Source: Pseudomonadota bacterium (GTDB lineage: Bacteria > Pseudomonadota > Gammaproteobacteria > Burkholderiales > Methylophilaceae). Taken from it: DNA of 64,000 nt. Positions 10,340 through 56,198 of this stretch are shown piece after piece. The notes under the pieces were generated by a model. That model ran no database searches, had not been told where the DNA came from, and was given only the letters and a program-made list of their open reading frames with translations. A program made the position numbers and the translations under genes. The stretch's first letter is position 1; each line of letters opens with the position of its first letter. The DNA lies in contig JAGVMP010000004.1 of the NCBI GenBank assembly GCA_020053735.1, positions 57,407-121,406 of the forward strand, read 5' to 3'.

Positions 10340-10373
10340 CGTTTCCTTGTTAAACATTTACACTAAAAAACAT

Positions 10374-10412
10374 ATGCCCTACAACCCGCATGGATATTGG
10401 CTCACAGAGCAT
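10374..10412 (-). repeat. 39-nt ATGGATATTGG element, intergenic copy
   Basis: The copy starts ATGCCCT, has the core ATGGATATTGG at 10390-10400 and ends AGAGCAT exactly 39 nt after the start. The ends are complementary apart from one position, so the unit can fold as a hairpin. It matches the intergenic copy at 56160-56198 (read on the other strand) at about 31 of 39 positions. It lies between the SMR gene and the orphan ORF, both on the minus strand. Confidence 0.7.
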
Positions 10413-29334: not shown

Positions 29335-29466
29335 AAAGCTGGTTAATCACGTGTGAAAAACAGATGCCCTGCAAGCCTCATGGATATTGGCTTTCACGCA
29401 TGAATAACCAGCTTTAGCTGGTATATTCTGCGGGGACAACCCTTGCGGTTGCAGGGCATCTGTTTT
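29335..29466. repeat. Interlocked inverted repeats containing the 39-nt element core
   Basis: Between convergent genes lie two overlapping inverted repeats in the order a-b-a'-b'. The b arms are a perfect 18-bp pair (AAAACAGATGCCCTGCAA at 29357-29374; complement at 29449-29466). The a arms (29335-29358 and 29392-29415) match at 21 of 24 positions. The b arm leads into the element core ATGGATATTGG at 29380-29390. The a' arm can also pair locally as ACCAGC-TTTA-GCTGGT. The pairs cannot all form at once except as a pseudoknot. Confidence 0.7.
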
Positions 29467-32309: not shown

Positions 32310-33257
32310 TTGAAAAAACAGTTAGTTTTATTTTTGTTATTGGCTACACACTTTTTTGCTCCACAAGTAGGCTTTGCGGCAGATGTTGCTTACCTGCTCA
32401 CCGCAGCATCCAAAGGTGATGTGCCGACGGTAAAAGCCATATTGGAAAGTGGCGGGAATGTAGAAGCCAAAGATGAAAATGGCATTACTGCGCTGATGTA
32501 CGCAGCACGTAAAAATCGTGCGGATGTAGCCAGCTTACTCATCAGCAAAGGCGCGCAAGTCAATGCTAAAGATAACGGCGGCTGGACACCGATTATGTTT
32601 GCCACCAAGAAAAATCATATTGAAACGGTAAAAGTGTTGCTAGAAAAAGGCGCTGACCCAAAAATCCGCGATGAAAGTGGTTGGAGCGCGTTTGGCATGG
32701 CGTCGACTTCTGGTTTCAGCGAAATCGTCAATCTCATGATTAAGCATGGCGTAGATGCCAATGCCAAAAGTGACGATGGCAAAACAGCGCTGATGTACGC
32801 GGCCAAAAGTGGTGATGTGCCCACGATTACAGCGCTGATGGCGCAAGGCGCACAAGCCAACGCGCACGATAGACAGGGCGCCACAGCATTGATTTATGCA
32901 GCGCGTGAAGGGCATACCCCTGCAGTGGCCTACATGCTAAGCCGTGGTTCCAAGGTGGATGAACAAGATCAATCGCGCTGGACTGCGCTGACATGGGCGG
33001 TGAAAAAATCGCAAGTGGAAGTGGCAAAAACGCTACTGGCAAACAAAGCGGATGTTGACCATGAAGACTCTGAAGGTACACCGTTGCTGCAGGTAGCAGT
33101 GGATACTGGCTCGCAAGAGATGGTGAAATTGTTACTGGAATACAAGGCGGATGTGAAAGCGCGTGACAAATACGGCCTCACCGCTTATGTCTACGCGCTT
33201 AAGAAAGGCGAGCCAGAAATCGTTAAGATGATTAAAGACGCTGGTGGCAAGTATTAA
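32310..33257 (+). CDS. Secreted ankyrin-repeat protein
   Basis: A protein of about 315 aa with a Sec signal (KKQLVLFLLLATHFFAPQVGFAAD) and eight or so consecutive ankyrin repeats filling the rest, each about 33 residues (for example NGITALMYAARKNRADVASLLISKGAQVNAKD). The track begins at TTG 32304; the TTG at 32310 is better placed relative to the AAAGGG Shine-Dalgarno and gives the clean MKKQ start. It would be a periplasmic interaction scaffold. It is the second secreted ankyrin protein in the window and lies directly behind sucCD. Its stop codon is part of an inverted repeat. Confidence 0.88.
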   Translation: MKKQLVLFLLLATHFFAPQVGFAADVAYLLTAASKGDVPTVKAILESGGNVEAKDENGITALMYAARKNRADVASLLISKGAQVNAKDNGGWTPIMFATKKNHIETVKVLLEKGADPKIRDESGWSAFGMASTSGFSEIVNLMIKHGVDANAKSDDGKTALMYAAKSGDVPTITALMAQGAQANAHDRQGATALIYAAREGHTPAVAYMLSRGSKVDEQDQSRWTALTWAVKKSQVEVAKTLLANKADVDHEDSEGTPLLQVAVDTGSQEMVKLLLEYKADVKARDKYGLTAYVYALKKGEPEIVKMIKDAGGKY

Positions 33258-36353: not shown

Positions 36354-36391
36354 GTTGGGTATCTGTTCTAAGGCTATGCGAGACAGTATAC

Positions 36392-36412
36392 ACAAGGCTT
36401 GCAGGGCATTAT
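36392..36412 (-). repeat. Degenerate partial copy of the 39-nt element
   Basis: On the minus strand ATGCCCTGCAAGCC matches the first 14 positions of the element, but the core is changed to TTGTGTATACTG. It lies between the bidirectional terminator and the kdsB stop. Confidence 0.4.
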
Positions 36413-41315: not shown

Positions 41316-43790
41316 TCAGTATTTATCGTGCCAGTAACGTGGCTGGCTCTGGCGCAAAGCATTCACGCTGATATTATTTATTCGCGTAAAATCTAGTGTC
41401 AGCGCACCTTGGAAGTCAGATCGATGAATCAGCGCGCCACTTTCCTCATACCGCTTCTCTATCAATGGCTTGGGATGTTTAAAGCGGTTTAAATAACCCA
41501 CAGTAAAAATAACATGCTGCGCGCTAACCGCTTGCACAAATTCGCGTGTTGAGGAGGTTTTACTGCCATGATGCGGCACAATGAGCACGTCACTTTTTAA
41601 GCGAGAGAAAATATCTTCTCCCGAAGCCTTATCTACATTGGCTTGCAGGGCAGTATCTTCGATAACATCTTCAAAAAGTGCATTTTCTGCCTCTTTTTCG
41701 ATATCTCCTGTTAATAGCAGACTGCCGAATTGGCTGCTCACCTTCACCACACAACTGCGATTATTGTCTTTAATATTGGCGTTTTCATAGCTGGCTAAAG
41801 TTGGCGCAAGCACTTCAAATTTCACTTGATCCCACAACCACGTTTGGCCTGCAAAGCATCGTATTGATTTTTTCGTACTGATTTCATGCAAGTTATTATC
41901 CATGCCGAATGAGCTTATCAACCAAGTCACAGGCAACTGTGCTAGCACTGACGTCGCGCCACCACTGTGGTCAGCATCATCGTGACTCACGATAAAACCA
42001 TCCAATTTTTTAATGCCGACTCCACGCAAAAACGGCACCACAATGCGACTGCCCGCATCGCTCTGTGTCGAAAAACGTGGTCCAGCATCATACAAAAATG
42101 TGTGATCTCTAGTTTGCACCACCACCGCCAAACCTTGACCGACATCTAACACCGTCGCGCGCATTTCACCTTTGGCAAGTTTGGCGGGACTGACAAAAAA
42201 TAGAGGCAGAAACAAAATGAAGCCTAACCAACGTTGTGGAAAACCACGCGGTAACAGCAGCCAAAGTACACCGAGTACTGCCAATAGCAGCGCCCAAATA
42301 GGCGGCGCAGCCTGTTGCCAAGTGGGTAAGTCTGATAAAAACACTAAGCCCTGCATGCATATTTCCAAAACGAAATGCGCCGCATGTAAAATAAAATCGA
42401 CAGGCATCAAGCTGCCCAAAATGGACAATGGCACGACCAATAAGCTGATGACAGGAATTGCAAATGCGTTAGCAACGGGCGAAATAATGGAAGCTTGACC
42501 GAACATCACGATGAGCAAAGGTAGTAACCCAAGCGTAATCGCCCACTGTGTATGAACTGCAGTTTTAAACGCAGAAAACGGCTTTAAGCGCCCTACCGTG
42601 ATGTAAGCAATTAAAGCCACCGCACCAAACGACAGCCAGAATCCAGGTGCAATTACCGCCCAAGGATCAACCATCACCACAACTAACACAGCTATAGCTA
42701 AGGCGCGCGAAATGGCCAAATTTCGCCCAAATAATAACGCTATGGCAAAGGTAGTGAGCATCAACAAGGTACGCTGTGTGGGTACTGACATGCCCGCCAG
42801 TAGTGCATAAACAACAGCGACCAGCAAACCTGCAATGGTGGCAACTTTGCGCGCAGGCATGTGCATGACTAAACTGGGAACTCGCCGCCATATAAAACTA
42901 GCCATGGCAAACGCCAACCCTGCCAGCATGGTAATGTGCAGCCCAGAAATACTGACGAGATGATTCACGCCCGTGCGCAGAAATACATTCCACTGATCTT
43001 GGGTAATTTGGCTATCATCCCCTACCACCAGCGCACGAATCACACCAGCGTAAGGCTTATTTTCCAGAGTTTGTGAAATTCGACTGCCGACTTTTTCGCG
43101 CAGATTTTCTACCACATACGTTGGCCGCCACACAAAATTGGTAAGCTTTTTATAGCCGCTCTTACTATGAACACTGCCAGTGGCACGCATATTTTCGGCC
43201 AAAGCCCACGCTTCGAAATCGAAACCATGTGGATTGTAAGTGGTATGCGGACGTTTCAAACGAATGGTAAATTGCCAACGCTCGCCAGCATGAAAATGGT
43301 TGCTGGCACTTGGCGCATTTTCTGGCCTTGGCGACTTCACATTGCGATAAAAATTAAGTGAAATATGCTGTGGGACATGTATTTGATTGAATGGTGCTTG
43401 CGGCGTCAGAATCTTTTCCACATCAAACTTAAAGCGCTCGCCACGCTCGGTGACCTCTGGCAAACTCGCTACAACGCCAATCACATTGATGCTTTTTTGC
43501 TGCCAATCTTTGGGCAACTCATCGCTTAATCGAACAGCTGCAACATTGGCAGCCCATACAAAACCCAGCAAACCTGCAACGAGCAGGTTGCCAAGGTTTT
43601 TTAAGACTTTTTGATTTACACCAAGCTGATGTAGTGAACGATTAAAATAAATTAAAATGGCAAGGCTGGGAGCCAATATCCATAAGGCTTGCAGGCCAAT
43701 GAAAATACTAGGGAAATAACTATCATAAAGACTGGGCTGTTGTTGCAACAACCAAGCGCCAAACACAAACCCCAGCGCAACTAACACCAT
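41316..43790 (-). CDS. comEC: DNA internalization competence protein ComEC/Rec2
   Basis: ComEC is the inner-membrane channel for single-stranded DNA in natural transformation. The 824-aa product has N-terminal membrane helices with a DUF4131 region, the central Competence domain with many helices (starting near VGDDSQITQDQWNVFLRTGVNHLVSISGLH), and a C-terminal metallo-beta-lactamase-like domain with HDDADHSGG and VPHHGSKTSS motifs. All parts appear intact, so DNA uptake is plausible. PilT and PilU are encoded in the same window. The 5' part contains a 39-nt repeat copy. It starts four nt after the lolD stop region, so the genes are adjacent on one strand. Confidence 0.96.
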   Translation of the reverse strand: MVLVALGFVFGAWLLQQQPSLYDSYFPSIFIGLQALWILAPSLAILIYFNRSLHQLGVNQKVLKNLGNLLVAGLLGFVWAANVAAVRLSDELPKDWQQKSINVIGVVASLPEVTERGERFKFDVEKILTPQAPFNQIHVPQHISLNFYRNVKSPRPENAPSASNHFHAGERWQFTIRLKRPHTTYNPHGFDFEAWALAENMRATGSVHSKSGYKKLTNFVWRPTYVVENLREKVGSRISQTLENKPYAGVIRALVVGDDSQITQDQWNVFLRTGVNHLVSISGLHITMLAGLAFAMASFIWRRVPSLVMHMPARKVATIAGLLVAVVYALLAGMSVPTQRTLLMLTTFAIALLFGRNLAISRALAIAVLVVVMVDPWAVIAPGFWLSFGAVALIAYITVGRLKPFSAFKTAVHTQWAITLGLLPLLIVMFGQASIISPVANAFAIPVISLLVVPLSILGSLMPVDFILHAAHFVLEICMQGLVFLSDLPTWQQAAPPIWALLLAVLGVLWLLLPRGFPQRWLGFILFLPLFFVSPAKLAKGEMRATVLDVGQGLAVVVQTRDHTFLYDAGPRFSTQSDAGSRIVVPFLRGVGIKKLDGFIVSHDDADHSGGATSVLAQLPVTWLISSFGMDNNLHEISTKKSIRCFAGQTWLWDQVKFEVLAPTLASYENANIKDNNRSCVVKVSSQFGSLLLTGDIEKEAENALFEDVIEDTALQANVDKASGEDIFSRLKSDVLIVPHHGSKTSSTREFVQAVSAQHVIFTVGYLNRFKHPKPLIEKRYEESGALIHRSDFQGALTLDFTRINNISVNALRQSQPRYWHDKY
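43661..43699 (-). repeat. 39-nt ATGGATATTGG element inside comEC
   Basis: Read on the minus strand (sense for comEC) the core ATGGATATTGG is at 43673-43683, preceded by CCTGCAAGCC and followed by CTCCCAG. About 30 of 39 positions match the intergenic consensus. The encoded residues are LQALWILAP, a third reading of the motif. Confidence 0.55.
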
Positions 43791-43794
43791 ACTG

Positions 43795-44472
43795 CTAGGC
43801 GCTAAATTGTGTCAGCTTGCCATCTTCGAGCCGATATTGCCGCTGCATTTTGGCCGCCAGTGCCAAGTCATGGGTAACGACAACTAAGCTAGTATGTTGC
43901 GCTTGGTTAATCTCCAATAGTAAATCAAACACTTGGTTAGCGGTGACGCGGTCTAAATTGCCGGTTGGCTCATCTGCCAAGATACAGGCGGGTTGGGTGA
44001 CAAGCGCTCTGGCCAGAGCAGCACGTTGCCGCTCTCCCCCTGAAAGCTCACCTGGCATATGCTCCAAGCGATGCGCCAAGCCCACTTTTTCCAGCATGAC
44101 TTTTGCACTTGCTAAAGCCTGCTCGCTAGACAAGCGGCGAATTAACAAAGGCATTGCGACGTTTTCAATCGCAGTGAATTCTGGCAACAAGTGATGGAAC
44201 TGATAGACGAAACCCAGCGCCTGATTTCTAAGTGCGCCTTTTTGTGCCTCGTTTAATTGGCTTAAATTTTTGTCCATCAATGCTACGCTACCACTACTAG
44301 GTGCATCTAAGCCGCCCAATAAGTGTAGCAGCGTGCTTTTGCCCGAACCTGAAACCCCGACAATGGCAATTTGCTCTCCTGCACTTATCTGCAAATCAAT
44401 CCCGTTAAGCACCGCCACATCTAAGCCGGTGTAGGTTTTGCACAAGTTTTGGCAGGTAATAATATTACTCAT
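43795..44472 (-). CDS. lolD: Lipoprotein-releasing system ATP-binding protein LolD
   Basis: LolD powers release of outer-membrane lipoproteins from the inner membrane with LolC/E. Walker A is [16 protein letters not shown], the signature [15 protein letters not shown] and Walker [12 protein letters not shown]. The track start (44556) lies in the upstream repeat; the ATG at 44472 ([14 protein letters not shown]) is the right one, with GAGAG eight nt before it, giving 225 aa. It follows lolC after an inverted repeat. Confidence 0.95.
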
Positions 44473-44485
44473 AGCAAAATCTCTC

Positions 44486-44622
44486 AAAATGATGCGTTTG
44501 AGATGCAGTGCGAGGCGCACGGAGCGCAGAAGTTGAGATAGTACGGGGTTGTACATCGAAGCTGTGAAGACTTAAATTAAACGTCTCGCGCAACGAAGTC
44601 AATGCGCTCAAAATCATCATTT
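44486..44622. repeat. Stop-anchored inverted repeat, copy III, between lolC and lolD
   Basis: This element of about 137 nt ends on the lolC stop codon. Outer arms AAATGATGCGTTTGAG and the complement of AAATGATGATTTTGAG pair at most positions. The inner part AGATGCAGTGCGAGGCGCAC and the centre GTAC-GGGGTT-GTACAT match copy I (487-605, minus strand), while the outer arms do not. It sits inside an apparent operon, so it may modulate lolD expression or mRNA stability. Confidence 0.7.
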
Positions 44623-45881
44623 TACTCATACCTTAAGGCCTCAGCAGGATTGATAGTCGAAGCTTTATAGCTAGGGTATAGCGTGGCTAGCAAGCTTAAT
44701 ATAAACGACATGACGACGATGGTAATGACATCATTCCACTCTAGTTTAGAAGGCAAATCGCTGATGTAATACACATCTTTAGCCAAAAACTGCACCTTAA
44801 ACAGGTTCTCGATAAACGGGATTATCGTATCAATATTCAGCGCAATAATCACACCCACCACCGCACCGATGAGGGTGCCAATCATGCCGATAAGCGCGCC
44901 TTGCACGATAAAAATACCCATAATGCTACGCGGACTCGCGCCGAAAGTACGCATAATGGCAATGTCAGCACGCTTGTCTGTCACCGCCATCACCAGCGTA
45001 GAGACAATGTTAAATGCCGCAACGGCGACGATTAAAGTCAGGATAATAAACATGACTTTCTTCTCTAGCTGTACCGCTTTAAAAAAGTTGGCGTGTTGCT
45101 GCGTCCAATCAGTGACATAGTAATTGCCATCTAATTTTTGGGCTAATTTTGCTGACATTTCTGGCGCATCAAATAAGTCATTCAGCTTTAAACGTAAGCC
45201 GGAAACATTGTCTCCCATGCGGTATAGCTTGGCAGCGTCATCCATATGAATCAGTGCAAGGCCAGCATCATATTCGTACATACCAATTTGAAACAAGCCG
45301 ACTACTTTAAATTGCTTGATGCGTGGCACCACCCCTGTTGGCGTAAACTGACCTTGTGGCGCCATCAGCACCACTTTTTCGCCGATTGAAACGCCTAGCA
45401 ATTGCGCTAAATCGGCGCCCAGCACCACGCCAAATTCACCTGCACGCAAGTCAGCCAAACTACCTGCTTTCATATTTTTGCCTAAGTCAGCCACCTTATC
45501 TTCTTCTGCCGGCAACACGCCACGCACTAAGGCGCCCTGCACCGCCTGGCCATAACTCAACATACCTTGCGCCATGACATAGGGTGCGCTGGCGATGACT
45601 TCGGGTTGGCTTTTTAGCTGTGCTGCCAGCACTGGCCACTCACTCAACTGATTATTGGCGCCAGTAATTTCCAGGTGCGAGGCTACGCCCAAAATACGGG
45701 TGCGCAACTCCGCCTGAAAACCATTCATCACCGAAAGCACCACAATAAGTGCGGCCACACCCAGCGCAATACCGATCATGCTGGTAAGCGAAATGAACGA
45801 AATGAAATGATTTTTGCGTTTTGCCCGCGTGTAGCGCAAGCCGATAAGCAGCTCGTAAGGCAGTTTATTGATTAAAGACAT
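44622..45881 (-). CDS. lolC: Lipoprotein-releasing ABC transporter permease (LolC/LolE type)
   Basis: A 419-aa permease with the MacB/FtsX topology: an N-terminal helix after LPYELLIGLRYTRAKRKNHFISFISLTSM, a periplasmic domain of about 220 residues, and three C-terminal helices (VMFIILTLIVAVAAFNIVSTLVMAV onwards) ending NPAEALRYE. Only one permease gene is present, so it may act as a LolC/E homodimer (LolF-like), as in many betaproteobacteria. A perfect 15-bp hairpin ends two nt before the ATG and takes the place of a Shine-Dalgarno. Confidence 0.94.
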   Translation of the reverse strand: MSLINKLPYELLIGLRYTRAKRKNHFISFISLTSMIGIALGVAALIVVLSVMNGFQAELRTRILGVASHLEITGANNQLSEWPVLAAQLKSQPEVIASAPYVMAQGMLSYGQAVQGALVRGVLPAEEDKVADLGKNMKAGSLADLRAGEFGVVLGADLAQLLGVSIGEKVVLMAPQGQFTPTGVVPRIKQFKVVGLFQIGMYEYDAGLALIHMDDAAKLYRMGDNVSGLRLKLNDLFDAPEMSAKLAQKLDGNYYVTDWTQQHANFFKAVQLEKKVMFIILTLIVAVAAFNIVSTLVMAVTDKRADIAIMRTFGASPRSIMGIFIVQGALIGMIGTLIGAVVGVIIALNIDTIIPFIENLFKVQFLAKDVYYISDLPSKLEWNDVITIVVMSFILSLLATLYPSYKASTINPAEALRYE

Positions 45882-56159: not shown

Positions 56160-56198
56160 ATGCCCCAGGAGTCAATATCCATGCGGCTTGCAGAGCAT
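56160..56198 (-). repeat. 39-nt ATGGATATTGG element between pilT and pilU
   Basis: On the minus strand it starts ATGCTCT, has core ATGGATATTGA (one change) at 56172-56182, and ends GGGGCAT, 39 nt in all. The ends are mutually complementary with one G-T pair. It lies inside the pilT-pilU transcript. Confidence 0.7.

Follow-up and report, generated by a model that had tools for sequence, protein, structure and literature searches.

A family of mobile hairpin elements in Methylophilaceae with a constant core and terminal repeats that change in matching pairs

We analysed a 64,000-nucleotide stretch of a Methylophilaceae genome (GCA_020053735.1, contig JAGVMP010000004.1, positions 57,407 to 121,406; hereafter the window) that holds two inverted-repeat elements, copies I and III. 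These raise the question of how hairpins can share an inner sequence, differ in their outer arms and still have arms that pair with each other in every copy. Covariance-model searching (model R1) recovered both copies, with the shared core, where a preliminary description of the sequence had put them; these were the only two good matches in the window, the third-ranked match scoring 11.8 bits. Read in element orientation, each has a 95-nt core between a left and a right arm, and the core is an imperfect hairpin centred on GTAC-loop-GTAC. The core of copy I lies at 500-593 on the minus strand (95 model positions, 95.1 bits). Its left arm (594-617, minus; the nominal 24 nt are taken from the 115-copy analysis described below) has a complementary part at about 594-611 that matches the other arm at 17 of 18 nt. 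The right arm (475-499, minus; complementary part about 482-499) was delimited by arm matching, empty-site comparison and the adjacent open reading frame, and its outer part overlaps the 3' end and stop codon of an M48-like metalloprotease gene (3-488, plus; open at the window start), a name based on the preliminary label and the HExxH motif HEIAH. The core of copy III (44499-44609, plus, 73.2 bits) contains an additional sub-hairpin of about 15 nt on its right side (44570-44586). Its left arm (44475-44498, plus) is a degenerate terminal repeat identified by arm comparison, and its right arm (44610-44634, plus) was placed using empty sites in 12 relatives; the two match at 15 of 17 nt, and only the inner 13-15 nt or so of the right arm are inserted DNA, the outer part being the native lolC end. 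Copy III sits within an operon, between a lolC-like ABC transporter permease gene (44622-45881, minus; open reading frame, named from the sequence and by the preliminary description) and a lolD-like ATPase gene (43795-44473, minus, with start ATGAGTAAT at 44473; open reading frame and empty-site alignment with relatives).

The 12 relatives lack the element between lolC and lolD. In these empty sites the lolC stop and the lolD start overlap (ATGAGTAA), and in the present genome this overlap stretch flanks the insert on both sides. A direct repeat, TTACTCAT, which is single-copy in the empty sites, accordingly occurs (with no strand assigned) at 44468-44475 on the lolD side, with the lolD start codon, and at 44622-44629 on the lolC side, with the lolC stop codon. 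In the closest relative, G003 (85-90% identical), the element was absent from the other alignable sites examined, and no trace of the arms was seen. Since empty sites have neither core nor arms, the arms arrived with the insert and are not inverted copies of the flank. The elements were inserted whole, core together with arms, after the species split, and their mobile nature is well supported. As a separate observation, the stretch upstream of dnaG carries the element in three species (L032, G000:C14:414916; L195; L219), in differing orientations and with differing arms, and is empty in G002 and G004; we read it as a repeated target.

The core words of the preliminary description occur 19 times in the genome at up to three mismatches, 17 of them in true elements, and the reversed pattern has no occurrence at the same tolerance. 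A covariance model built from 16 copies gave about 30 strong matches in the 2.44-Mb genome and detected the element in 15/15 genomes of the genus and in 40/60 genomes of the family (18 of the 24 sampled genera), and an exact pattern scan found it in Methylotenera, Methylophilus, Gallionella, Sideroxydans, other Nitrosomonadales and a few Methylococcaceae. With its arms the element measures about 142-160 bp, inside the 50-500 bp typical of MITEs, and codes for no protein; its dispersed copies, with empty sites in relatives, also agree with that class. Six copies searched against Rfam 15 gave no covariance-model match up to E = 1, the plasmid search gave one match, to a Nitrosomonas plasmid, the phage search gave none, and we found no description of the element in the literature on Methylotenera, Methylophilus, Nitrosomonas and Gallionella. 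Four copies lie within 3.4 kb at G000:C1:39521-42934 (L093); three of these sites are empty in G003 and the fourth is unalignable. Longer variants (L191, L195, L206, L225, L299, L300, L335, L338) have extra small hairpins at a few fixed places in the core or arms.

That the left and right arms of each copy are complementary, as had been noticed for the two window copies, was borne out across the family. Own-arm scores exceeded the scores of arms swapped between copies in the set of 17 copies. Over 115 copies the mean arm score was 20.4, compared with 10.1 for swapped arms and 8.9 for the next 26 nt outward, and 80 copies lay above the 95% level of the swapped-arm null, compared with 1/115 for the outward sequence. 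In the same 115 copies, a position-by-position comparison put complementarity above that of swapped arms over roughly the first 27 nt outward of the core, and at chance from 29 nt. The arms are therefore of set length and have the sharp outer edge expected of the terminal inverted repeats of MITEs. The further statement that arms differ completely between copies was right in general: copies with similar cores were no likelier to have similar arms (Mantel r 0.09, null maximum 0.12), and near-identical cores were found with unrelated arms, as in L228/L222 (core 99%, arms 46% identical) and L205/L214 (core 96%, arms 44% identical), for which the unrelated-flank background is 42%. A TAAA motif, placed 10-13 nt away from the core, is nevertheless common to most arms.

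The terminal repeats of ordinary MITEs stay constant, since the transposase must recognise them. In this family it is the core that stays constant, and the ends are replaced in matching pairs, with hairpin pairing restored in place. The better preserved copies carry arms of type A (GGAAACRCGGAATAAGT), type B (GGGCACYTCTAWAAATKCA), type C (GACCTTTGCAAAAGTACTT) or type D (GAACGTGTTTTAAAAGC). Type B arms also surround a different core of the same build, in 142-144-bp elements of G035, G049, G084 and G104, and type A-like arms enclose yet another interior in 118-bp elements of G035. The 142-144-bp hairpins with type B arms make up a sister family (L339-L356; G020, G021, G035, G041, G049, G084, G104) with the core ACAAGGCGCGA ... 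CATAT-ATATG ... GAGCAACGCAGTAT and 4-bp duplications of TTAA, TTTA or TAAA.

Target duplication was assessed with the outer arm edge set at 24 and 25 nt from the core. An exact 4-bp duplication was present at this edge in 12/115 copies, compared with 0-3 at other offsets, and at least three of four bases were duplicated in 26 copies, compared with 4-13; nearly all of the exact edge duplications are TTAA, CTAA, TTAG or TTTA. Target site duplication, a further MITE trait, is therefore seen across the family and not in the window copies. None of 28 copies in this genome has the exact 4-bp form, and the two window copies are degenerate, copy I showing no duplication and copy III one of 8-9 bp in place of the YTAR type. 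In the related genome G035, a 1.1-kb IS5-like element bounded by TTAA on both sides begins with GGAAACACTGATTTATT, ends with GGAAACGCTGAACAACC (reverse complement) and contains a broken DUF772 plus DDE_Tnp_1 transposase, and G055 holds an intact IS5-type element with TTAG duplications and the terminal repeats GGAAGGTGCGAACAAGT and GGAAGGTGCGAATAAGC. From these element ends we conclude that type A arms are IS5-type terminal repeats. Ends common to the hairpin element and an autonomous-type insertion sequence were found for type A only, in G035; for the arm types of copies I and III the search gave no partner. Likewise, the IS5-like terminal repeat with YTAR duplication is present in type A copies of relatives and degenerate in the window copies. 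A search of this genome for a DUF772 transposase gave no match; given this result and the missing exact 4-bp duplications, the mobiliser of the window copies has to be read from the family. Judged by sequence, an IS5-type mobiliser appears established for one arm type only. One other apparent association, at L252, was rejected, as the element there lies 0.8 kb away at another gene, outside the insertion sequence.

We consider it probable that these are old, degenerate MITEs moved by IS5-type transposition, with a constant core and exchangeable arms whose pairing is kept largely by template switching. A DDE transposase of IS5 type would have moved the elements in trans, and complementarity would have been preserved for the most part because one arm serves as fold-back template for the other as the DNA replicates; a terminal repeat newly gained on one side could pass to the opposite side in this way too. 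The 8-9-bp duplication and short right arm of copy III, unlike the family pattern, speak against this explanation, as do the lack of exact 4-bp edge duplications and of a DUF772 match in this genome.

Pairing is maintained: the sides of the hairpin covary between copies, and orthologous copies show the same after insertion. In an unfitted MAFFT alignment of 16 copies, 16 of the 24 predicted pairs show a double change. In alignments fitted to the model, 24/24 pairs (57 distinct copies) and 17/24 pairs (63 distinct copies) have changed on both sides, with 0/500 shuffles reaching this, and double-change cells number 222 and 167 compared with 56 and 36 in shuffles. Five pairs of orthologous copies, with two species per locus, hold 8 compensatory double changes that preserve pairing; random placement of these substitutions would yield about 1.2. 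The number of pairs is small and the changes are not polarised. Template switching homogenises the arms of repeats and inverts their spacers, which are its two marks (PMC8604942), and it has been proposed as a keeper of RNA hairpins (PMC8794818). Inversion was seen at a locus shared by G006 (L068) and G001 (L077), where the core has been turned round together with the inner arms (20/22 nt agree with the partner once it is flipped) and flank-proximal sequence on one side has not moved (13/14). Both species have the imperfect duplication TTAA/TCAA at this locus, which makes a single insertion with later inversion likelier than two separate insertions.

The main rival accepts the same mobile element and attributes its pairing to selection acting on the folded form, either a cis-acting RNA hairpin in transcripts or a hairpin required for transposition, and not to mutation. 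We take this to be a serious possibility, if a less probable one than the reading above. Strong covariation speaks for it, as do mismatches conserved at fixed places; template switching alone should erase such mismatches, and their persistence in the core points to some selection on shape. The Methylophilus orthologues L215 4253-4344 and L228 5251-5343, from two strains, are near-identical between flanks that are only 80-82% alike, and ERIC and Correia elements act as RNA hairpins (PMC2229807, PMC2649163). Set against this, the elements have no preferred orientation to neighbouring tandem genes (sense 30, antisense 46; 12 and 10 in this genome), and inversion in place does happen. A strand-specific RNA function, suggested by an excess of G-U over A-C pairs (106 to 23 in the fitted alignment), was rejected, as the excess shrinks to 48 to 43 in the genus set when pairs are chosen symmetrically, on Watson-Crick pairing alone (39 to 13 in the wider set). 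Template switching accounts for the pairing as well as selection does, and we infer that it is the keeper of the pairing, favouring it over hairpin selection as its main rival. The case is also a caution that covariation by itself does not have to mean a functional RNA. Since a genome holds dozens of copies and close relatives share orthologues, the family could be used to test selection against template switching, a long-standing question.

Template switching may also bear on how the arms came to be exchanged. The hairpin might swap its transposase partner, a new terminal repeat being fold-back-copied to the other arm so that one core is used by several unrelated transposases in turn; we offer this as a speculation that is rather unlikely to be correct.

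Two further readings concern the origin of the arms. The core could have inserted into hairpins that already existed (terminators or palindromes), with the arms as old target sequence. A constant core beside variable arms would fit, and some elements do target hairpins, but the empty sites contain no such hairpin, the arms have one fixed length that ends in a target duplication, and one arm type consists of insertion-sequence terminal repeats, so we regard this reading as largely refuted and very improbable. Marginally less credible still is that insertion copies flanking DNA in inverted orientation, one of the two proposals of the preliminary description. In copies I and III alike, the arm on the side of the gene is shorter and continues into native coding sequence, and this overlap with a native 3' coding end recurs at L029. 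Elsewhere the proposal fails: at most sites the arms are missing from the relatives' empty sites, complementarity never reaches into the flank, and the fixed arm length refutes inverted copying as a general rule; the match of one arm type to IS5-like terminal repeats also speaks against it.

The other proposal, that selection keeps a paired stem at gene 3' ends, survives in part. Pairing is kept in place, as compensatory changes in orthologues and core covariation indicate, but the tie to 3' ends is lost, with 106 stop-facing and 100 start-facing neighbouring genes. It had also been claimed that each element begins or ends exactly on a stop codon, which is close to the mark: the end of the M48-like gene, at 488, is 11 nt away from the core of copy I, and that of lolC, at 44622, is 12 nt away from the core of copy III. 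Among genes ending near an element, stop distances from the core peak at 11-14 nt (28/97), because of the TAAA motif in the arm, and at 23-27 nt (24/97), because of the TTAA, CTAA or TTAG target at the arm edge. The arm and target sequences contain stop codons, so the stop-codon link is a by-product; stop codons in the target and in the TAAA of the arm would make insertion at the very end of a gene tolerable. The least plausible reading, that the elements are terminators or other gene-end structures kept at orthologous places, draws on their frequent nearness to stop codons and is refuted by the empty sites, since their places are not orthologous in relatives, and intrinsic terminators in particular were rejected because convergent gene pairs are not in excess (15 convergent, 12 divergent) and copy III lies inside an operon.

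The elements form a new MITE family, an unusual variant of an ordinary class, in which the core is constant and the terminal repeats are exchangeable and change together. They resemble IS5-group insertion sequences and their MITEs in having GGAAAC..GAATAAG-like terminal repeats and a 4-bp YTAR duplication in the best preserved copies, and in sharing their ends with an IS5-like transposase element of a related genome; they differ in that one arm type only is tied to a transposase, many copies have other arms and the window copies are degenerate. Correia (NEMIS) elements of Neisseria are likewise short mobile inverted repeats with a conserved core, near genes and in fixed length classes (PMC2649163, PMC2229807), but, comparing architectures from these papers, Correia has a constant terminal repeat with 5'-TA-3' ends where the present family has a constant core, variable repeats and a 4-bp duplication. 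ERIC (IRU) of enterobacteria is a mobile, non-coding, intergenic imperfect hairpin of about 127 bp (PMC2229807) and, on the architecture given in papers, differs in its short terminal repeats. In QMITE2 and other Coxiella MITEs, terminal repeats of 23-29 bp surround a 113-145-bp core, which folds into a long hairpin (PMC10969869), but their direct repeats measure 7-9 bp, and we found no report of unrelated terminal repeats around a single core. Where template switching mutates inverted repeats, arms are likewise homogenised, spacers inverted and compensatory changes made (PMC8604942, PMC8794818); this has been described in RNA genes and in coding repeats of yeast, and we found no report of it for mobile hairpins. 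Integron attC sites, marked by conserved R/L boxes and linkage to integrase cassettes, were considered because of the variable self-complementary arms, but in the present elements it is the outer part that varies and the inner part that is conserved. The element size and 4-bp duplication do not suggest a REP/RAYT system (Y1 transposase, REP hairpins of 20-40 nt).

The window holds other repeats as well. One, about 30-37 nt long (TGCCCTGCAAGCCGCATGGATATTGGCT and its complement), has numerous copies on both strands, also within coding sequence (10366-10402, 29356-29392, 36377-36408, 43667-43698, 56166-56197 and others), and is found in other genomes of the genus. In addition, two 57-nt direct repeats, 74% alike (32450-32506 and 32747-32803), lie in a coding stretch that resembles ankyrin-type repeats.
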